Both the position numbers and the translations under genes were made by a program. DNA of 40,889 nt from Candidatus Planktophila sp. (GTDB lineage: Bacteria > Actinomycetota > Actinomycetes > Nanopelagicales > Nanopelagicaceae). Each line of letters opens with the position of its first letter. The stretch's first letter is position 1. The notes beneath the pieces are model-generated. The model was given only the letters and a program-made list of their open reading frames with translations, was not told where the DNA came from and did no database searches. The stretch is from contig SHVF01000008.1 in NCBI GenBank assembly GCA_009691135.1, positions 1-40,889 on the forward strand, read 5' to 3'. This document shows, piece by piece, positions 1,392-37,150 of this stretch.

Positions 1392-4091
1392 TTAAGCGCG
1401 CTTCTTCTCACGCATCTCGAAGACCTGGATTGTGTCTCCAATTTGCAGATCCTTCATATTGCCAAGACCAATACCGCACTCGAAGCCTTCTTTGACTTCA
1501 GTTGCATCGTCTTTAAAGCGCTTGAGCGAATCGATTGTGAGTTCATCTGTGATGATCTCCGTTCCACGCATGATGCGCGCTTTCGCGTTGCGTCGAATGA
1601 CACCGTCGCGGACGACAGAACCAGCGATATTTCCAGCCTTTGATGATTTAAAGATCTCGCGGACTTCGGCATTACCCAGAACGATTTCTTCGTACTCTGG
1701 CTTGAGCAAGCCCTTAAGTGAAAGTTCAATCTCTTCTATTGCGTTATAGATAACAGAATAGAAGCGAACTTCGACGCCTTCTTGATCCGCATAGATTGCA
1801 GTCTGTGGTTCTGGCTTAACGTTAAAGCCGATCACAACTGCAGTAGATGCCGATGCCAAGGTGATGTCGCTCTTGGTGATTGCGCCAACACCACGGTGAA
1901 TAACACGAAGATCTACTTCGGCGCCAACATCGAGTTGCATCAGTGCATCTTCAAGTGCTTCCACAGAACCAGATACGTCACCCTTAAGAATGAGATTAAG
2001 AGTTGAGACCTTGGACTGTTCCATAAAGTCTTCAAGTGAGACTTTCTTACGCGCCTTAGCAAGCTGAGCGTTACGTTCTGCGGCCTGACGCTTTTCTGCA
2101 ATCTGACGGGCAGTGCGGTCTTCATCGGCAACTAGGAAAGTATCGCCAGCGCTAGGCACCGATGTAAATCCGAGAACCTGAACCGGGCGTGATGGCCCAG
2201 CAACTTCTAGATTTTTACCATCTTCATCGAGCATCGCACGAACGCGACCAAATGATCCGCCGGCAACGATAGCGTCACCAATTCGTAGAGTTCCGCGTTG
2301 TACAAGCACGGTAGCAACAGGCCCACGACCACGATCGAGATGCGCTTCAATAGCAACACCACGAGCAGAATCTTGTGCAACTGCGCGCAAATCAATAGCC
2401 GCATCCGCTGTTAGCAAAATGGCATCGATCAAATCATTTACGCCAACGCCAGATTTAGCAGAGACGTTTACGAATAACGTTTCGCCACCATATTCTTCAG
2501 CGATCAAGTTGTACTCGGTTAATTGTTGGCGGACCTTATCTGGGTTTGCGCCTTCTTTATCAACCTTGTTAACGGCAACCACAATTGGAACATCGGCTGC
2601 TTGTGCGTGATTTAAAGCTTCGATTGTCTGCGGCATAATGCCGTCATCGGCTGCAACTACCAATACTGCGATATCTGTGACCTTGGCACCGCGAGCACGC
2701 ATTGCGGTAAAGGCCTCGTGACCAGGAGTATCAATAAAGGTAATTGCTCGGTTTACACCATCATGATCGTGGTGAATTTGGTAGGCACCGATGTGCTGAG
2801 TAATTCCGCCGGCCTCAGTCCTTAGAACTTCAGATTTACGGATCGCATCTAGCAAACTGGTCTTACCGTGATCGACGTGTCCCATGACAGTTACAACTGG
2901 TGGGCGCGCTACTAAGAGATCGGCATCAAGGTCAGCAAGTTCTTGCGCCAAGTCGATATCGAAATCTTGTAGAAGTTCACGGTCTTCATCTTCAGGGCTA
3001 ACAATTTGGATTACATATCCAAGTTGAGCACCGAGAATTTCAAAGGTATCTGCATCAACTGATTGTGTTGCAGTAACCATTTCACCTAAGTGGAAAAGCG
3101 CTGCAACAAGTGCTGCTGCATCTGCGCCAATCTTTTCAGCGAAATCTGCAAGAGTTGAACCACGACGCATGCGGATCGGAGTCTTTCCATCACCGTGTGG
3201 AATAACTGCGCCACCCAATTGTGGCGCTTGCATATTGTCGAATTCATCGCGTAAGGCTTTTCTAGATTTAGGTTTGCGCTTGCTGCTCTTGCTGGCATTT
3301 TTTCCAAATGCTCCTGCTGTACCGCCGCGACCAGGACCACGATTTGGTGCACCGCCTCCGGGACGTTGTGGACCGCCAGTTGATGGTGCGCCAGTTGATG
3401 GACCACCTGAACGATAAGGACTAGAAGCTGGTGCGCCACCTGTGCGTGGTGGGAAATTACCGGGACCGCCTGTACCTGCAGGACGTGGTGTATTTGGTCG
3501 CGCTGCAAAACCAGGACGCACAGAACCAGGACGCGGTCCTGACATTCCAGGGCGCGCGCCAGTTGAACCAGCAGAACGTTGTGGTGGACGAGGAACTGCA
3601 CTTCCAGTTGAAAATGGATTATTGCCCGGACGTGGTGGACGCGCAACGCTACTTGTTCCAGTTGAACCAGCAGTTGAAAATGGATTGTTACCGGGACGAG
3701 GGGTCGTAGGTTTTATTTCTTTAACTTCAGCTCTTTCTTCAGCCACCGGCAAAGGTGGGGTTGGCGCTGTCGGAGCTTGTGCCTCCGCGCGCGCTGCTTT
3801 TAGCGCTTCAAGATCAACGCCGAGTTCGGCGGCAAGTTCGGCGGCAAGTTCTGGATTAACTTCTGCAGTTTTCTTAGCTGCGCTCTTTTTGGCGGCAGCT
3901 TTCTTAACTGGCTTTGTCTCTTCAACTGGCTTGGCATCGGGATACATCTCGATGAGTTTGCGCACGACTGGTGCTTCTACAGTTGATGATGCGGAACGAA
4001 CGAATTCGCCCATTTCTTGGAGTTTGGCAAGAACAACCTTGCTCTCCATACCGAGTTGTTTTGCCAACTCATGTACGCGGACCTTTGACAC
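1392..4091 (-). CDS. infB: Translation initiation factor IF-2
   Basis: IF2 is the GTPase that brings fMet-tRNA to the 30S subunit and promotes subunit joining. The 899-residue protein has an IF2_N domain (about 1-50), a Lys/Ala-rich helix, then a low-complexity Pro/Gly/Arg/Ser segment (about 130-260) containing a near-repeat of RPGNNPFST at about 132-140 and 154-162. A second IF2_N-type domain follows. The GTPase has G1 GHVDHGKT at 404-411, G3 DTPGH at 454-458 and G4 NKVD at 508-511, and the IF2 C-domains come last. The start is GTG at 4089-4091, with AGGAG four bases upstream (4096-4100). The long disordered N-terminus is typical of Actinobacteria. Confidence 0.98.
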
Positions 4092-25922: not shown

Positions 25923-26852
25923 CTAATCCTGTTTTTCTGCGCGGGGGTGGGCTAGTTTAAAGGCTTTTTGAAGGCGTTCGGTTGAAACGTGGGTGTAGAT
26001 CTGGGTAGTAGCAAGGGAGGCGTGCCCCAATATTTCTTGGACGGTTCGCAGATCTGCGCCACCTTCTAATAAATGTGTTGCCGCCGAATGTCGCAGCGCA
26101 TGTGGCCCCATTCTTTCCACGCCTTCTAAAGCTGCAAGTGCGTGATAAACCACGGTACGAACAGTGCGTTGATCGATTCGCTTGCCGCGCAAGCCAAGAA
26201 AAACTGCGCGCATCGATTTTTCACCTGCTAAAGCTGCGCGTCCATTCTTTAGCCAATTCTCAAGTGCGCGCATCGCCGGGTTGCCGATCGGAATAGTGCG
26301 CTCCTTATTGCCTTTACCTAAAACGCGAATCGTCTGGCGTTGATAATCGATATCCTCCAGATCTAAACCGCAGAGCTCGGATACACGAGCACCGGAGGCG
26401 TACAAAATTTCTAGCATCGCGCAATCACGCTTTGAAATTGGGTCATCTTCCTCAGCAACTCGGACAGCCATCGAATCCATGGCAATTGCAGCATCGGTGA
26501 CATTTAAGATCTCGGGCAAAGTACGCGCACCTTTAGGTGTGGCAAGTGTCGCACCAACATCTTTTGCAAGGTATCCCTTTTTAGTCGCCCACTTTGTAAA
26601 TAAACGAATCGAGGTGGCACGGCGTGACAAAGTGGTGCGCGCTCCCCCTTTGATTTGCTGGTTAGCAAGCCAGGATCGAATATGCGAGAGTTCCAAAGTT
26701 GCAAAATTCTTTACATCTAACTTATTTAAATGATCGAAAAAGGAATCAAGATCACCCATATAGGCACGCACCGTGTGTACCGAAAGATTTCGCTCTGCCT
26801 CTAAATAACGTTCAAATGCGCTACGAATATCACTTAACGCAACGCTAGTCAT
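25923..26852 (-). CDS. xerC: Tyrosine recombinase XerC/XerD
   Basis: This is a site-specific recombinase that resolves chromosome dimers at dif. From the ATG at 26850-26852 (MTSVALSDIRSAFERYL) it is 309 residues. It has an N-terminal SAM-like core-binding domain (about 1-95) and the catalytic set Arg156, Lys180, His251, Arg254, His277 and nucleophile Tyr286 (HALRHSAATHLL, GHASLATTQIYTHVS). The frame continues upstream into cimA, but this ATG starts ten bases after the cimA stop. Normal length and a housekeeping context argue for XerC rather than a phage integrase. No dif or attachment site was found nearby. Confidence 0.92.
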   Translation of the reverse strand: MTSVALSDIRSAFERYLEAERNLSVHTVRAYMGDLDSFFDHLNKLDVKNFATLELSHIRSWLANQQIKGGARTTLSRRATSIRLFTKWATKKGYLAKDVGATLATPKGARTLPEILNVTDAAIAMDSMAVRVAEEDDPISKRDCAMLEILYASGARVSELCGLDLEDIDYQRQTIRVLGKGNKERTIPIGNPAMRALENWLKNGRAALAGEKSMRAVFLGLRGKRIDQRTVRTVVYHALAALEGVERMGPHALRHSAATHLLEGGADLRTVQEILGHASLATTQIYTHVSTERLQKAFKLAHPRAEKQD

Positions 26853-26862
26853 ACGGTAAAGG

Positions 26863-28452
26863 TTACTCGGGTTTGCGCCCTTGACGCAGTAGGCCGAAGG
26901 TAACTGCATCTTCAAGTGCCATGGCGGATGCGGCAATAACATTTTCGTGAACACCGACAGTGTTCCATTCACCTTTTCCATCAGATGTTTCAACTAACAC
27001 GCGAGTGATTGCGCCGGTTCCGAGGCGGCCTTCAAGAATACGAACCTTGTAATCAGTAAGTTCTAGAACTTCAAGTTCTGGATAGAGCTGCTTTAAACCA
27101 GAGCGAAGTGCGTTATCAAATGCGTTAACTGGACCGTTTCCTGATCCCGTGCAAGAAATCTTTTTTCCCTGCGCCGTAACCGTTACTTCTGCTTTTGTGA
27201 CGATGCTCTGATCCTGTGCGCGCTCTACGGTAGTTAACCAATGATCAATTGTGAAAAATGATGGACGTTTTCCATTTACTTCTTCTAGCAATAAAAGTTC
27301 GAAGGATGCATCGGCTGCTTCAAAGGTAAAGCCACGAGATTCCATCTCTTTTACACGATCGATAATGCGCCCAAGAAGTTCGCGGTCTCCACCTAAATCA
27401 ACGCCAAGTTCTTGGGATTTGAGTTCAATGGAGGCGCGGCCAGCCATTTCAGATACCAACATCCGCATATCATTTCCGACAGATGCTGGATCTTCGTGTT
27501 GATATAAGAAGGGATCAACTTTGATTGCAGATGCGTGGAGTCCGGCTTTGTGTGCAAAAGCTGAAACCCCAACGTAGGGCTGGCGGCCAAAGGGAGAAAT
27601 ATTTGTAACTTCAGCAACTGCATGTGAGATTCGGAATGACTCTCTTAGGAAATCGGTAGGAAGAACTAACTGCTTCTTCTTTAGCTCCAGATTGGCGATG
27701 ATTGTGACTAAGTCCGCATTACCCGTTCGCTCGCCATAGCCATTTAGAGTGCCCTGAACGTGGGTTGCACCCGCTGCGACCGCTGCCATTGAGTTAGCAA
27801 CTGCGCAACCTGTGTCGTTGTGGCAATGGATACCGATACGTGCAGAAGTTGCAGTTAAAACATCATGAACGACATCAGCGATTTCATCAGGCAACATTCC
27901 GCCATTGGTATCGCAAAGCGCAGCAACATCGGCGCCCGCATCCATTGCAACACGAATAACCTCGAGTGCATAATCGCGATTAGCCCGATAGCCGTCAAAG
28001 AAATGCTCAGCATCGAGAAATACGCGTTGCCCTTCTTGGCGAAGGTGAAGCACGGAATCGCGAATCATCGCCAGGTTCTCTTCTAAAGTAGTTTTTAGCG
28101 CAAGATCAACGTGGCGATCAAAAGCTTTTGCAACCAGAGTTACGGCAGGAGCGCCAGAATCGCGAAGTGCGCCGAGCAAAACATCATCGGCGGCCTTGCA
28201 ACCTGGGCGACGAGTTGTTCCAAAGGCAACGAAGGTAGCGTTTTTGAGTTTTAACTCTTTCTTGGCGAGAGCGAAAAATTCGGTATCTTTTGGATTAGCC
28301 CCTGGCCAACCGCCTTCAATAAAACCAACACCGAGATCATCTAGGTGACGAGCAATCGTTAGCTTGTCGTGGACAGAGAGATTTAGACCTTCTTGTTGTG
28401 CACCATCGCGCAAGGTTGTGTCATATATATGAAATGCATCAGAGACTGGCAT
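26863..28452 (-). CDS. cimA: (R)-citramalate synthase
   Basis: The 529-residue protein is of the isopropylmalate/citramalate/homocitrate synthase family. It has the TIM-barrel start YDTTLRDGAQQEGLNLSVHDKL, the metal-binding IHCHNDTGCAVANS, the subunit-exchange NGYGERTGNADL and a C-terminal LeuA-type allosteric domain. The DTTLRDGAQQEG form and VGFIEGGWPGANPKD fit the CimA branch, which condenses pyruvate and acetyl-CoA to start isoleucine synthesis without threonine. The ATG overlaps the ilvE stop by one base. Its place at the end of ilvBNC-serA-leuB-ilvE is typical of Actinobacteria. A leucine-pathway role is less likely but not excluded. Confidence 0.9.
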   Translation of the reverse strand: MPVSDAFHIYDTTLRDGAQQEGLNLSVHDKLTIARHLDDLGVGFIEGGWPGANPKDTEFFALAKKELKLKNATFVAFGTTRRPGCKAADDVLLGALRDSGAPAVTLVAKAFDRHVDLALKTTLEENLAMIRDSVLHLRQEGQRVFLDAEHFFDGYRANRDYALEVIRVAMDAGADVAALCDTNGGMLPDEIADVVHDVLTATSARIGIHCHNDTGCAVANSMAAVAAGATHVQGTLNGYGERTGNADLVTIIANLELKKKQLVLPTDFLRESFRISHAVAEVTNISPFGRQPYVGVSAFAHKAGLHASAIKVDPFLYQHEDPASVGNDMRMLVSEMAGRASIELKSQELGVDLGGDRELLGRIIDRVKEMESRGFTFEAADASFELLLLEEVNGKRPSFFTIDHWLTTVERAQDQSIVTKAEVTVTAQGKKISCTGSGNGPVNAFDNALRSGLKQLYPELEVLELTDYKVRILEGRLGTGAITRVLVETSDGKGEWNTVGVHENVIAASAMALEDAVTFGLLRQGRKPE

Positions 28453-29531
28453 TAGATAACTCTCTTCATCCAGTCATGCTTATCAGCAGTTGTTCCGTGC
28501 TGAATCGCGAGCAAATGATTTCTGATTTCCATGGTGATCTTTCCAGGTTGTCCATCACCTGTGACCCATGTGCCCATGACGCTCTTGGCTTGACCGACTG
28601 GAGATACAACTGCTGCGGTGCCGCACGCGAAAATTTCTGTGATCTCACCTGATGCAACACCGATGCGCCAATCATCAATCGATAACATAATTTCATCTGT
28701 TTTATAACCTAAATCTTTTGCGGCAGAAAGAATTGAATCACGCGTGATCCCTGGCAACAAAGTGCCAGTTAACTTAGGAGTAATTACGGAAGCGTCAGCG
28801 CCTTTACCTTTAACGAAGTAAAGGTTCATGCCGCCCATCTCTTCAACCCATTTTCGTTCCTTGGCATCGATCCAAACAACTTGGTCACAACCTTCTTTAG
28901 CAGCAGCTTTTTGGGCAATAAGAGATGCCGCGTAGTTTCCACCACACTTGGCTTCTCCAGTTCCACCCAACGCTGCGCGAACATATTCGGTTGAGATCCA
29001 AACTGAAACTGCTTTAGATGGATCAAAGTAAGCACCTGCTGGAGTAGCAATAAGAATGTATGTCGCTTTGTTGGAAGGGCGAACACCCAGTCCAACTTCA
29101 GTTGCGATCATAAATGGGCGAATATACAAAGACTCTCCAACTTTATTTGGAACCCATCCAGCATCTTGCTTAACAAGTGCCTTAACTGTTTCCAAGAATA
29201 AAGATTCAGGCATTTCTGGAAGCGCTAACCGTGCTGCAGATTTAGCAAAGCGACGGGCATTTGCTTCGGGGCGAAATAATGAAATACCGCCATCTGGTTG
29301 GCGATATGCCTTCATTCCTTCGAAGATCTCTTGTCCATAATGAAAAACCGCAGTTGCCGGATCTAAAGAAAGCGGACCATAAGGAATTAACGCAGGTTCA
29401 GCCCAGCCATCTTTTTCAGACCATTCACAAATAACCATGTGATCGGTGTAGTGCCTACCAAATCCACCTTCAGCAACTAAGGCATCGCGAGTCGCAACAT
29501 CTTTGGCATTTGGATTTAGTGAGATTTTCAT
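28452..29531 (-). CDS. ilvE: Branched-chain amino acid aminotransferase
   Basis: IlvE is a PLP enzyme that performs the last step of Val, Ile and Leu synthesis. The 359-residue protein is the class IV aminotransferase, long actinobacterial/eukaryotic-like form. Signatures are GPLSLDPATAVFHYGQEIFEGMKAYR, GESLYIRPFMIATE, the PLP-lysine region GEAKCGGNYAASLIAQ and GEITEIFACGTAAVVSPVG. It lies one base downstream of leuB and overlaps cimA by one base, so it is part of the attenuated ilv operon. Confidence 0.97.
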   Translation of the reverse strand: MKISLNPNAKDVATRDALVAEGGFGRHYTDHMVICEWSEKDGWAEPALIPYGPLSLDPATAVFHYGQEIFEGMKAYRQPDGGISLFRPEANARRFAKSAARLALPEMPESLFLETVKALVKQDAGWVPNKVGESLYIRPFMIATEVGLGVRPSNKATYILIATPAGAYFDPSKAVSVWISTEYVRAALGGTGEAKCGGNYAASLIAQKAAAKEGCDQVVWIDAKERKWVEEMGGMNLYFVKGKGADASVITPKLTGTLLPGITRDSILSAAKDLGYKTDEIMLSIDDWRIGVASGEITEIFACGTAAVVSPVGQAKSVMGTWVTGDGQPGKITMEIRNHLLAIQHGTTADKHDWMKRVI

Positions 29532-29532
29532 T

Positions 29533-30567
29533 TTAGAGTTGCGCTAAGAGCGCATCTCCGATTTCAGTAGTGCTTCGCTTCTTATCACCACGGACTAGCA
29601 AATCAGCGTTTACTGCAGCTTCAATTTCACGGGCAGCATCGAGAAATCCCAAGTGATCCATCATCATCGCAACCGACATGACTGTTGCTGTTGGATCAGC
29701 CAGATTCTTACCTGCGATATCTGGTGCAGAACCATGAACAGGTTCAAACATAGATGGGAACGCGCCAGTTGGGTTGATATTGCCGGAAGCGGCAAGTCCG
29801 ATGCCGCCACAAATTGCAGCTGCAATGTCAGTCAAGATATCTCCGAAGAGATTATCGGTGACAACTACATCAAAGCGTTCAGGGTTGGTAACCAAGAACA
29901 TTGATGCCGCATCCACGTGTAAATAATCAGTAGTAACAGTCGGAAACTCTGGTGCAACTTCGTTGAAAGTACGAGTCCAGAGGCCGCCGGCACGTGTAAG
30001 TACGTTGTTTTTATGAACAAGTGTTAGCTTCTTGCGATCGCGCTTGGCAGCACGTGCAAATGCATCACGAATTACTCGCTCAGCACCACGCCGAGTATTT
30101 AAGGATTCTTCCGTTGCAATTTCGGCATCGGTGCCTTGAGCAAGGATACCGCCAGCGCCAACATATGGACCTTCAGTACCTTCGCGTACAACGATGAAGT
30201 CGATTGGCGCCTTTGTCGCAAGTGGACCAGTAACGCCGGCACGCAAAAGTGCCGGACGTAAATTAATGTAATGATCGAATGCGAAACGCAATTTGAGTAA
30301 CAACCCGCGCTCTAGAACACCGCTTGGAACGGTTGGATCTCCAACTGCGCCAAGCAAGATGACATCTGCTTTTGCAAGTTGCGCCAAAACGGAATCAGGA
30401 AGAACTTCACCGGTGCGATGCCAATATCCAGCGCCCAAATCATATTCAGTCTTTTCAAAAGTTACGCCATGTTTTGCGGCAACCTTATCTAGAACACGGA
30501 TTCCTTGGGCAATAACTTCTGGACCAATTCCATCGCCGGCGATTACGGCAAGATTTATCTTCTTCAT
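29533..30567 (-). CDS. leuB: 3-isopropylmalate dehydrogenase
   Basis: LeuB oxidatively decarboxylates 3-isopropylmalate in leucine synthesis and can also act on erythro-3-methylmalate in the citramalate isoleucine route. The 344-residue product has [59 protein letters not shown] and [28 protein letters not shown]. This is the short actinobacterial type. The neighbouring cimA suggests dual use. leuA, leuC and leuD are not in the window. Confidence 0.96.
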
Positions 30568-30580
30568 AATTATCTTCTTG

Positions 30581-33212
<2,632 letters not shown>

Positions 33213-33500
33213 TTAGTTCTGGTAATCGGGTTGGGTGTCGTGCTTTGAATTGCTGACCGCACCGTCGAGAATCTCTTCGATACTAATCACATTTATTAAC
33301 TTATCTAACTGAGCAATAACTTGTTCCAAAGAGTGACCTTCGACGCTTACTTCGATGATCATCTTAGAAATCGTTGAGTTTTCAGTTGGGCCAACAGACA
33401 GCGAATCAATGTTGTAAAGGCGTCGCGCAAATAGACCTGCTACGCGGGCCAATACACCTGGTTCATTTTCAACGAGAACTTCTATCTTATGAATAGCCAT
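33213..33500 (-). CDS. ilvN: Acetolactate synthase small (regulatory) subunit, short form
   Basis: This is the regulatory partner of IlvB, which binds valine and stimulates the catalytic subunit. The product is 95 residues and consists of one ACT domain (KIEVLVENEPGVLARVAGLFARRLYNIDSLSVGPTE) followed by a short tail. Actinobacterial IlvN/IlvH proteins are usually about 165-175 residues with a second C-terminal domain. Here the stop is followed after 12 bases by ilvC, so there is no room for it. Enterobacterial IlvN of AHAS I is naturally this short. The ATG overlaps the ilvB stop by one base. Confidence 0.93.
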   Translation of the reverse strand: MAIHKIEVLVENEPGVLARVAGLFARRLYNIDSLSVGPTENSTISKMIIEVSVEGHSLEQVIAQLDKLINVISIEEILDGAVSNSKHDTQPDYQN

Positions 33501-35260
33501 TAGAGCTCCTGTGAATCCCAGTCAGGCGCCGTAGCGCGGGCGATCATGATTTCATCATTAGAAGTTCCGGCAGCAACCATTGGCCAAACCATGGCATCAC
33601 GATGGACACGGAAATCAACAACAACTGGTTGATCATTTATAGACATCGCTTTTTCAATTGTTGCATCAACGTCATCTGGACTCTCACAAGAAAGTCCAAC
33701 ACAACCCATGGACTCCGCCAACATTGGGAAGTTTGGAATCCGCTTAGATTCAAGGCTGGTGTTTGAATAACGGCTGTCATAGAACAAGGTCTGCCATTGA
33801 CGGACCATTCCTAAACTTTCATTGTTAATGATTGCAACCTTGATCGGAATATTATTTAAGGCGCACGTAACAAGTTCTTGATTAGTCATTTGGAAACAAC
33901 CATCTCCATCTATTGCCCAAACAGTTGTATCTGGTGCGCCAACTTTTGCACCCATCGCAGCTGGAACCCCGTAACCCATAGTCCCCGCACCGCCTGAGTT
34001 AAGCCAGGTGCGAGGTTTTTCATAACTAATAAATTGTGCTGCCCACATCTGATGTTGGCCAACACCTGCAGTGAAGATTGTGTCAGGTCCACAAATCTTT
34101 CCAAGTCGCTCGATTACAAGTTGTGGTGACAACGCACCATCGGCTGGTGTGTCATAACCCAATGGATAAGTTGCTCTCAACTTATTCATGCTATCGATCC
34201 AAGGTGAAAGATCAGTACGTCCCTTAGCAAGAACGGCAGCAAGTGCTGGAATAAGGGCTGTCATGGTCTCGCGCAGGTCACCGATTACGGCAACATCGGC
34301 ATAGCGATTCTTACCGATTTCTGCAGGATCGATATCTGCGTGAACAATCTTGGCATTTTGCGCAAATGTTGAAAGTTTTCCAGTTACTCGATCATCAAAA
34401 CGTGCGCCTAAAGTTATAAGCAAATCAGCCTTTTGCAGGGCAGTTACGGCTGCAACGGTTCCGTGCATTCCTGGCATACCAAGATGTTGCGGATGAGAAT
34501 CTGGGAAAGCACCACGCGCCATCAAAGTTGTAACAACTGGTGCACCGAGAAGTTGTGCAAGTTCTAGTAATTCGCGGGATGCGTTAGCTTTGATTACACC
34601 ACCGCCAACATAGAAAACAGGCTTTGCAGATTGCGCAATAAGCACTGCCGCATCATTGATAGCGCTCTTATTTGGATATATCTGTGGCTTATAACCAGCC
34701 AGATTCACACTAGTTGGCCAATCAAAAGTTGTCTGCTTCTGAAGTGCATCTTTTGCGATGTCAACAAGAACCGGACCGGGACGCCCTGATGTAGCGATGT
34801 GAAATGCTTCGGCAATAACACGTGGGATGTCATCTGGGTTGGTAACTAAAAAGTTATGTTTGGTAAATGGCATAGTAATCCCGCGGATATCTGCTTCTTG
34901 AAAAGCATCAGTTCCTATTGCAAGCGATGGAACTTGACCTGTAATTGCAACAACTGGAACTGAGTCCATCGCAGCATCCGCAAGTGGCGTGACTAAATTT
35001 GTGGCGCCAGGTCCAGATGTTGCAATGCAAACACCAGCGCGGCCAGTGACCTGCGCGTAACCAGTTGCAGCGTGTCCGGCACCTTGTTCGTGGCGAACCA
35101 AGATGTGACGAATCGTTGAATCATAAATTGGATCGTAAGCAGGAAGAATCGCACCGCCCGGAATTCCGAACATCACATCAACATTGGCAGCTTCAAGGCT
35201 TTTAACCAATGAAGAAGCTCCAGTCATTGCGGTGCCATTGGCAGTTGGTATATGTGCCAT
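33500..35260 (-). CDS. ilvB: Acetolactate synthase large (catalytic) subunit
   Basis: This TPP- and FAD-dependent enzyme forms acetolactate from two pyruvates, or acetohydroxybutyrate from pyruvate and 2-oxobutyrate. The 586-residue protein has the three TPP-enzyme domains, catalytic Glu58 in [39 protein letters not shown] and the TPP-binding [16 protein letters not shown] onward. The ATG at 35260 has AAGGAG seven bases upstream. It is the first structural gene after the attenuator, so the whole ilvB-to-xerC block may respond to branched-chain amino acid supply. Confidence 0.98.
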
Positions 35261-35306
35261 CTTCGTACTCCTTCCCCTTCGATTGAAATTTGTTACCTGG
35301 CAAATG

Positions 35307-35330
35307 AAAAAACCCTCAGATATCTGAGGG
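35307..35330 (-). terminator. Intrinsic terminator of the ilvB attenuator
   Basis: On the minus strand the perfect palindrome CCCTCAGAT/ATCTGAGGG (35313-35330) is followed directly by six Ts (35307-35312). As RNA it forms a 7-8 bp GC-anchored stem with a short loop and a U-tract, a standard Rho-independent terminator. It stands between the leader peptide and ilvB, 46 bases before the ilvB ATG. Termination there would prevent expression of the operon. Confidence 0.88.
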
Positions 35331-35354
35331 CGCGTGCTCTAAAACGGCACGCGC
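35330..35354 (-). promoter_or_regulatory. Second attenuator hairpin next to the terminator
   Basis: Perfect eight-base GC-rich arms GCGCGTGC and GCACGCGC are separated by nine bases. The upstream arm starts at the last base of the leader-peptide stop codon, and the downstream arm shares its final base with the terminator stem. A ribosome sitting at the stop codon would mask the upstream arm. It is probably part of the attenuation switch, as antiterminator, protector or pause stem. The exact alternative pairing is not clear by eye. Confidence 0.65.
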
Positions 35355-35410
35355 TATCGAATCACCACCACAATTACAGATGATGAGGTTAATGAGAGCT
35401 TCTTTTCCAT
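35354..35410 (-). CDS. ilvB operon leader peptide
   Basis: An 18-codon open frame too short for routine gene calling reads MEKKLSLTSSSVIVVVIR from the ATG at 35408-35410 to TAG at 35354-35356. Six consecutive codons are Val, Ile, Val, Val, Val, Ile, and two Leu codons lie earlier. These are the classic control codons for branched-chain attenuation. GGAG (35420-35423) is nine bases before the ATG. The stop abuts a GC-rich hairpin, followed by a terminator and then ilvB. Low charged tRNA-Val or tRNA-Ile should stall the ribosome on the run and favour read-through. A similar mechanism is known for ilvBNC in Corynebacterium glutamicum. Confidence 0.85.
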   Translation of the reverse strand: MEKKLSLTSSSVIVVVIR

Positions 35411-35438
35411 AAGCCTATTCTCCAACGCCTATGGGTTG

Positions 35439-35467
35439 ATAGTCAAGGTATGAGATGTAAGTCTCAA
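35439..35467 (-). promoter_or_regulatory. Candidate promoter of the ilvB operon
   Basis: On the minus strand TTGAGA (35462-35467) and GACTAT (35439-35444) are 17 bases apart, 29 bases before the leader-peptide ATG. The -10 box matches at the conserved A2 and T6 positions only, so it is moderate. A small inverted repeat TGAGA/TCTCA (35451-35466) overlaps the -35 region. The promoter must fall in the 66 bases between the ilvD stop and the leader peptide if the unit is independent of ilvD. Confidence 0.45.
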
Positions 35468-35476
35468 ATTGTGAAA

Positions 35477-37150
35477 CTACCCGCAGACCGCACCCTTTGA
35501 GGCAGAGCCCACAGTCTTGGAATACTTGGCCAAGACTCCACGAGTGAATTTATGTGGCAATGGTTGCCAGCCCACTTTGCGAGCTTCGAGTTCTGCTGGA
35601 TCCACTAAGAGATCCAATGTGCGCGCTTTAATATCAATTCGAACTAAATCACCATCATTAATAAATGCAATAGGTCCGCCATCGACTGCTTCGGGTGCAA
35701 CATGTCCAACACATAGACCAGTTGATCCGCCAGAGAAGCGGCCATCAGTTAAAAGTAGAGTTGATTTACCAAGACCGGCACCTTTAATTGCACCGGTAAT
35801 CATTAACATCTCGCGCATGCCAGGTCCCCCCTTTGGACCTTCGTAACGAATAACGACTACGTCACCAGATTGAATGATTCCGTTCTCTAACGCTTCCATA
35901 GCGGCTTGTTCGCGTTCGAATACACGCGCTGGACCTTCGAAAGATTGCACGCCAATACCTGCGGTCTTGCAAACAGCGCCATCTGTTGCAAGTGAGCCAC
36001 CAAGAATTGTGATTCCGACATCTGTAGAAAGAGGTGTGGCAACGGCATGCAAAATATCTCCATCTACATCTGGTGGATTAATTCCAGCTAAGTTTTCGGC
36101 CATAGTTTTTCCGGTAACGGTCATAACATCGCCATGTAATAAGCCGGCATCGAGAAGGGCTTTAAGAATTACTGGAACTCCCCCAACGCGATCCATATCA
36201 GTCATTACATAGCGCCCAAATGGTTTTAGATCGCCAAGCAATGGAACGCGTGAACCGATGCGATGGAAATCATCGAGTGATAAGTCAACTTCTGCTTCGT
36301 GGGCGATAGCAAGTAAGTGAAGTACAGCATTGGTTGAACCGCCCACTGCCATGACTGCAGTGATGGCATTTTCAAATGCACGCTTTGTTAAAATATCGCG
36401 AGTTGTTAGACCCATCCTGATCATATTTACAACGGCTGCACCAGATTGAACTGCAAATGCATCGCGGCGGCGATCAACTGCAGGAGGTGCAGCAGAACCT
36501 GGAAGCGAGAGACCAATTGCTTCGCCAACTGTTGCCATGGTGTTGGCGGTGTACATACCGCCGCAGGCGCCTTCGCCAGGGCAGATGGCGCGTTCAATTT
36601 GATCGACGCGCTCTTTGGTAATTAACCCGCGAGCGCAAGCACCAACTGCTTCAAAGGCATCGATGATGGTTACATCGTTTCCATCAACTTGGCCGGGCAG
36701 TGTTGAACCTGCATAAACAAAGACAGATGCAACATCGATGCGCGCTGCCGCCATCATCATTCCGGGAAGTGATTTATCGCATCCTGCAAATGTGACCATG
36801 CCATCAAAGCGCTCTGCCTGCATAACTGTTTCAACTGAATCTGCGATTACTTCGCGAGAGACCAGAGAAAAGTGCATACCTTCGTGGCCCATTGAGATTC
36901 CATCAGAAACTGAGATAGTGCCAAATTGCATTGGAAATCCACCAGCATCAATGACGCCTTGCTTTGATGCTTTCGCTAGACGATCTAAAGATAAATTACA
37001 TGGAGTGATTTCATTCCAAGATGAAGCGATACCAATCTGAGGTTTTACCCAATCTTCATCTGTCATTCCAACAGCGCGCAACATTCCGCGGGCAGGTGCT
37101 CGCTCAAGACCATCTGTGACTAGCCCTGAACGTGGTTTCATCTGCGACAT
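35477..37150 (-). CDS. ilvD: Dihydroxy-acid dehydratase
   Basis: IlvD dehydrates dihydroxy acids to 2-oxo acids, the third step of Val and Ile synthesis. The 557-residue enzyme has three conserved cysteines for the iron-sulfur cluster: Cys51 (NEITPCN), Cys124 ([14 protein letters not shown]) and Cys196 ([16 protein letters not shown]). This three-Cys pattern suggests the [2Fe-2S] type. [23 protein letters not shown] is near the C-terminus. The ATG at 37150 has no visible Shine-Dalgarno sequence, so the mRNA may be leaderless. It is divergent from the MFS gene and lies upstream of the attenuated ilvB operon but outside its leader control. Confidence 0.97.

Follow-up and report, generated by a model that had tools for sequence, protein, structure and literature searches.

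A probable ribosome-sensing attenuator ahead of ilvB in Candidatus Planktophila, with a hairpin proposed to act by position

We analyzed a window of 40,889 nucleotides (the whole stretch of DNA under study) from Candidatus Planktophila sp. and conclude, with a probability of about 0.8, that the minus-strand region from the ilvD stop (35477) to the ilvB start (35260) carries a transcription attenuator that senses branched-chain amino acids through the ribosome and whose upstream hairpin (hairpin 1) would act by position. The element is of the actinobacterial ilvB (ilvL) attenuator kind, which is already known, and the member described here is new. Direct reading of the sequence bore out the parts reported in the initial annotation, namely an 18-codon frame with a VIVVVI run, a hairpin starting from its stop codon and a terminator with six Ts (Table 1). 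The leader, hairpin 1 and the terminator, T run included, take up 105 bases, and the ilvB ATG lies 150 bases below the leader start. As had also been claimed, hairpin 1 and the terminator have a single base in common, C35330 (two if a flanking G-U pair is counted). The folding energy of the 121-nt RNA is -41.7 kcal/mol vs -28.6 +/- 3.65 kcal/mol in shuffled sequences (z = -3.6).

Table 1. Coordinates of the control region and of the downstream genes in the window, in order of transcription
Feature	Position	Strand	Remarks
Palindrome TGAGACTTACATCTCA (TGAGAY-N4-RTCTCA)	35451..35466	.	Candidate operator, 4 nt before -35
-35 element TTGACT	35441..35446	-	TTGAC in 31/31 genus leaders, spacer 17-18 nt
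-10 element GAGAAT	35417..35422	-	Last base 6 nt before leader ATG
Leader peptide gene MEKKLSLTSSSVIVVVIR	35354..35410	-	ATG at 35410, stop TAG at 35356-35354; regulatory run V-I-V-V-V-I; predicted leaderless; GUG-enriched Val codons
Hairpin 1 (GCGCGUGC / GCACGCGC)	35330..35354	-	Arms GCGCGTGC (35354-35347) and GCACGCGC (35337-35330); first base is G of leader stop codon; proposed ribosome-controlled antiterminator, adjoining terminator; folding, covariation
Intrinsic terminator CCCTCAGA-TA-TCTGAGGG + six T	35307..35330	-	Arms 35330-35323 and 35320-35313, TA loop, TTTTTT at 35312-35307
ilvB, acetolactate synthase large subunit	33500..35260	-	NF005860, 1047.7 bits vs cut-off 881; first structural gene
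ilvN, acetolactate synthase small subunit, short (95 aa)	33213..33500	-	TIGR00119 over cut-off
ilvC, ketol-acid reductoisomerase	32166..33200	-	NCBIfam
serA, phosphoglycerate dehydrogenase	30581..32200	-	TIGR01327
leuB, 3-isopropylmalate dehydrogenase	29533..30567	-	NF002898
ilvE, branched-chain aminotransferase	28452..29531	-	NCBIfam
cimA, citramalate synthase	26863..28452	-	TIGR00977
xerC-like tyrosine recombinase	25923..26855	-	PRK00283 over cut-off; TIGR02224 (XerC) slightly under

Relatives were collected with the IlvB protein as the query and were found in 58 of 60 genomes; 80 further loci, mostly from named species and some from MAGs, were added. The regions upstream of ilvB were extracted and then scanned for leader, hairpin and terminator. 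The genus relatives are freshwater-type actinobacterial MAGs and one single-cell genome. The Val/Ile run in a short frame upstream of ilvB, the GC-rich hairpin and an intrinsic terminator between frame and gene are retained in all 31 genus loci whose leader is complete; the terminator has the form CCCTCAG...CTGRGGG followed by a T run. A leader with a V/I run, a hairpin and a terminator are also present in 63 further Actinomycetes loci that could be parsed by script, and the homologous element, a GCGCG hairpin adjoining a terminator, recurs at the orthologous gene. The comparison with close relatives proposed in the initial annotation thus found the small frame and the terminator conserved rather than absent, together with hairpin 1 arms that covary (see below). 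Upstream of ilvB in one relative (L056), the leader MLSRISVRLERAS has no contiguous Val/Ile run, and the hairpin and a terminator-like stem are still there.

The leader peptide varies freely in its N-terminal part, its length in the genus ranging from 9 to 19 codons, and the run, hairpin and terminator are constant. Genus leaders end in or near the Val/Ile run. In the short form found here, the stop codon comes just before the hairpin arm. Other families, too, have comparable short forms. The 5' arm of hairpin 1 begins at the stop codon here and within a few nucleotides of it in the other short forms. Two genus members (L015 and L016) have a frame that runs through the 5' arm (...VVIRKRAI, then stop), and such a read-through frame (...LVVLGRRVG, then stop) is the form in most other Actinomycetes. 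GUG accounts for 71 of the 86 Val codons across 24 distinct genus leaders vs 7% of the Val codons in ten genes of the window; it is the rarest Val codon in ordinary genes here, yet it is the one used in the regulatory run. The commonest Val codon of the run in other Actinomycetes is GTA. Leader peptides typically use rare regulatory codons, and their retention here is hard to explain by an untranslated frame. Pairing of the GUG run with the 3' arm of hairpin 1, considered by eye, was set aside, as the use of rare codons suffices to explain the codon conservation. The sensing logic of the element is well supported, the codon bias lending indirect support to control by aminoacyl-tRNA supply through ribosome stalling, and the earlier proposal of branched-chain attenuation ahead of ilvB stands: leader, rare codons, hairpin and terminator are conserved in genus and class, and homologous leaders are known attenuators.

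A promoter, TTGACT-18-GAGAAT, which the initial annotation had missed, is conserved ahead of the leader. All 31 genus leaders have TTGAC, a spacer of 17-18 nt and GAGAAT (or GACAAT, GATAAT), with the last base of the -10 element precisely 6 nt ahead of the start codon, and in nearly all other class loci a -10-like element, defined by a loose pattern, lies 6-8 nt before it. Because the -10 element ends 6 nt before the ATG, transcription is predicted to begin at or next to the A of the AUG, and a leaderless transcript starting on the leader AUG is a strong prediction from these distances. The homologous leader of Streptomyces lividans is leaderless by RNA-seq (PMC8079986), and the title of Morbach et al. 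2000 describes the C. glutamicum ilv leader peptide as formed without a ribosome binding site (cited in PMC4046766). The terminator lies only ~150-170 nt past the ilvD stop (window 35307-35477), so that transcripts reading through from ilvD would also run into it, and on these the leader would not be leaderless.

The relation between hairpin 1 and the terminator is one of position. When hairpins were scanned without a limit on the distance to the terminator, hairpin 1 ended at most 3 nt from it (0-3 nt) in 93 of 94 loci, with loops of 3 to 43 nt; an equally strong adjoining hairpin was found in ~1% of shuffled sequences. At most one or two bases are common to both stems, one here and none in most relatives. 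RNA was also folded with a 27-nt ribosome mask, placed ahead of every regulatory codon in turn or at the stop codon. The third pair of the terminator kept a probability of at least 0.9 under every stall in 31/31 genus loci and in 59 of the 63 others. Its closing pair, by comparison, fell to 0.4-0.5 here with the ribosome on early regulatory codons and was 1.0 with the ribosome at the stop, a response that this species shares with a few others. In the masked folding suggested earlier, the closing pair responds to the ribosome here and the terminator is otherwise nearly intact. No base-swapping antiterminator beyond the closing pair appeared in the ribosome-masked folding of the genus and class loci, and a terminator and antiterminator made mutually exclusive by shared bases, as in the trp type, were not found either, the terminator persisting under stall. 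The initial annotation was correct to deny a textbook mutually exclusive pair and to doubt the antiterminator, and on the evidence of abutting stems and masked folding this holds across the class.

Hairpin 1 itself is supported by covariation. At the inner arm positions, anchored on the outer GCGC, pairing with its own partners beat that with randomly dealt partners, as 0 of 2000 shuffles reached it for the other class loci and 19 of 2000 for the genus, with relatedness retained in both tests. Taken with the folding and the abutting geometry, this means that hairpin 1 is real and constrained in position, and that it does not displace the terminator by strand exchange. Three other pairings were considered: that of the leader segment AGAAGCUCUCA with the 3' side of the terminator was rejected, being seen in this species only; that of the A/G-rich leader start with the U run (terminator value 0.03 here) is spurious, as the U run is not free at the decision point; and a loop-terminator pseudoknot is possible in a few members only.

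We propose that the RNA starts at or beside the leader AUG, so that ribosomes would load on leaderless RNA and trail the RNA polymerase. When charged Val-tRNA and Ile-tRNA are scarce, a ribosome would stall on the GUG/AUU run without covering the 5' arm of hairpin 1; the hairpin would then fold, the terminator directly behind it would fail, and ilvB and the later genes would be transcribed. When the charged tRNAs are plentiful, the ribosome would run on to the stop codon, which lies at the base of hairpin 1, and cover the 5' arm, and without hairpin 1 transcription would terminate ~46 bases before ilvB. Since a ribosome at the stop would cover this arm and one on the first regulatory codons would not, hairpin 1 could report stalling. 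Because it has almost no bases in common with the terminator, it is proposed to act by position. The exit channel widened by NusA holds one hairpin duplex plus a single-stranded segment (PMC12288461), and a folded hairpin 1, 0-3 nt away, would occupy the space of the single strand beside the terminator stem; there should be no room next to that stem for another duplex attached through 0-3 nt. In a few species, this one included, hairpin 1 may also compete for the closing C-G pair of the terminator. Three points count against this reading: equilibrium folding alone shows no switch; it has been argued that neighbouring hairpins in clusters favour termination (PMC8355165); and in S. coelicolor, as cited in PMC1262725, substitution of candidate regulatory codons before ilvB left regulation unaffected. 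The wider proposal, that throughout the Actinomycetes a ribosome-controlled hairpin defeats a terminator by abutting it, through steric exclusion in the exit channel and not through base sharing, is tentative, and we consider it somewhat less than an even bet. If true, it would be a distinct antitermination principle and would account for the actinobacterial ilvB leaders.

The rival explanations differ mostly in what they make of the two stems. A textbook attenuator, in which an antiterminator sharing a long stretch with the terminator forms upon ribosome stalling, as in E. coli trp, would fit the competition of the closing terminator pair with hairpin 1 in this species and a few others, and a pairing of the terminator 3' side with the P1 loop has been proposed in Corynebacterium (PMC10272879). 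We nevertheless regard it as improbable, since there is no conserved competing helix, the terminator beyond its first pair persists in 31/31 genus loci at all stalls, and the stems are 0-3 nt apart. Hairpin 1 might instead be a pause hairpin that holds RNA polymerase for the ribosome, with antitermination brought about by the ribosome or by another structure such as a loop-terminator pseudoknot. Pause hairpins often accompany attenuators, and in several genus members the loop CCUUCA has a potential partner in UGAGGG, the 3' arm of the terminator; however, this loop pairing is missing in most relatives and a pause role by itself leaves the constant abutting of the stems unexplained, which makes the explanation unlikely, if still worth keeping in mind.

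Two further explanations dispense with the sensing ribosome altogether. The terminator might end the transcript of ilvD, which lies just upstream on the same strand, with the small frame non-regulatory and ilvB subject to promoter control alone, exerted by an IclR-type regulator; a conserved palindrome does lie next to the -35 element, and the NdgR site called at ilvB in S. coelicolor, TCCCACCCACTTGAC, extends over this palindrome (PMC4340878). The terminator, however, is downstream of the ilvB promoter and thus acts on ilvB transcripts, and the leader retains its rare GUG codons and its fixed distance to the -10 element, so we hold this account to be very unlikely. A riboswitch or other ligand-binding RNA could be suspected from a conserved structure ahead of a biosynthetic operon, but the conserved part consists of a coding frame and two simple hairpins, and this possibility can almost be dismissed. 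A search with Rfam 15 models other than ilvB-II gave no match in the window at the gathering score and none at E<=5 in 35200-35520. The ribosome-sensing attenuator with a hairpin acting by position remains our preferred reading.

The palindrome, also overlooked in the initial annotation, may form a second layer of control at this locus. The site before the ilvB -35 element is the only perfect match to TGAGAY-N4-RTCTCA in this genome. A search of the genome with one mismatch allowed gave about as many matches as the control, and therefore only perfect or well-placed copies were used. The palindrome is found in 23 of 37 genus genomes, usually in one copy and mostly before ilvB. Among the other class loci, a related palindrome (at most two mismatches) lies near the -35 element in 21 of 59, most often 5 nt before it, vs ~1% in shuffles; the gap to the -35 element is 4-5 nt across the class. 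ChIP-seq of S. coelicolor NdgR names the above site at ilvB (PMC4340878), and its position is that of the palindrome in the Streptomyces loci analyzed here. In ten genus genomes inspected, an IclR-type gene of 241-242 aa is divergent from leuC, and all ten (L168-L177) have a palindrome copy with 0-2 mismatches (e.g., CGAGATTAGCATCCCA) at the junction between the start of this gene and leuC. The palindrome is thus perhaps an operator bound by an IclR/NdgR-like protein, a link suggested by gene neighbourhood and the Streptomyces data and not by a family model. Another perfect copy lies within the 3' end of an aspartokinase-like gene (L178, G035 contig 136, 1136-1151) and shortly before an aspartate-semialdehyde dehydrogenase-like gene.

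Downstream of the attenuator, only short gaps separate the genes as far as cimA. The cimA stop is followed ~7 nt later by the start of the xerC-like gene, which is likely the last gene of the transcript. The reach of the operon to serA, leuB, ilvE, cimA and possibly xerC, as suggested initially, is plausible from this spacing. Four relatives have the order ilvB-ilvN-ilvC-serA-leuB-ilvE-cimA-xerC as well, although one of them lacks serA in the cluster. In L180 (G015), serA is absent between ilvC and leuB (3347-3349), and in L181 (G014) the segment 3429-4379 matches only the first 317 residues of serA. IlvN is 93-95 aa long in this species and many genus members (most of L003-L023, and L052) and 159-184 aa in L012, L025-L027 and the outgroups. 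The short form retains the N-terminal ACT domain and a C-terminal tail (..DYQN) and looks like the result of a loss of the C-terminal domain, which may have changed feedback control.

These results place branched-chain attenuation in an actinobacterial genus whose members have small genomes and are mostly uncultured, with parts conserved class-wide. We found no literature on leader peptides in the order Nanopelagicales, and class-wide abutting of stems without base sharing was not found stated in the literature searched. Homologous leaders act as attenuators in Corynebacterium (PMC10272879) and in M. tuberculosis, where induction is lost when LVVI is replaced by AAAA and the defect is relieved by removal of the terminator (PMC13236596). 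Among known systems, the S. lividans ilvL/ilvBHC attenuator (leader MRTRILVLGKRVG) has a leaderless leader peptide, as predicted here, and the Streptomyces loci examined likewise have a GCGCG hairpin, a terminator with a U run and a palindrome before the -35 element. They differ in that the leader frame in Streptomyces continues through the hairpin 1 5' arm and the hairpin has a long loop, whereas here the stop codon stands at the foot of the arm, and the regulatory run is longer here (VIVVVI) than in the S. lividans leader. The M. tuberculosis ilvB1NC attenuator also combines a leader peptide rich in branched-chain amino acids with a terminator before ilvB (PMC13236596), but its leader sequence is different and its published model relies on mutually exclusive folds, which were absent in our folding of most mycobacterial relatives (M. 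tuberculosis not being among them). The Corynebacterium ilvB-II motif has two stems as well, P1 and P2 (the terminator), and a leader frame of 15-17 codons (PMC10272879); its P1, however, is mostly inside the leader frame, and its antiterminator is proposed between the right side of P2 and the P1 loop. The candidate actinobacterial ilvB leaders of Seliverstov et al. 2005 concern the same genes and the same kind of leader and terminator, in Corynebacterium, Mycobacterium and Streptomyces and not in this genus, and their mode of regulation was left open (PMC1262725). The constant abutting of hairpin and terminator makes this 2005 question of how such leaders act addressable by spacing.
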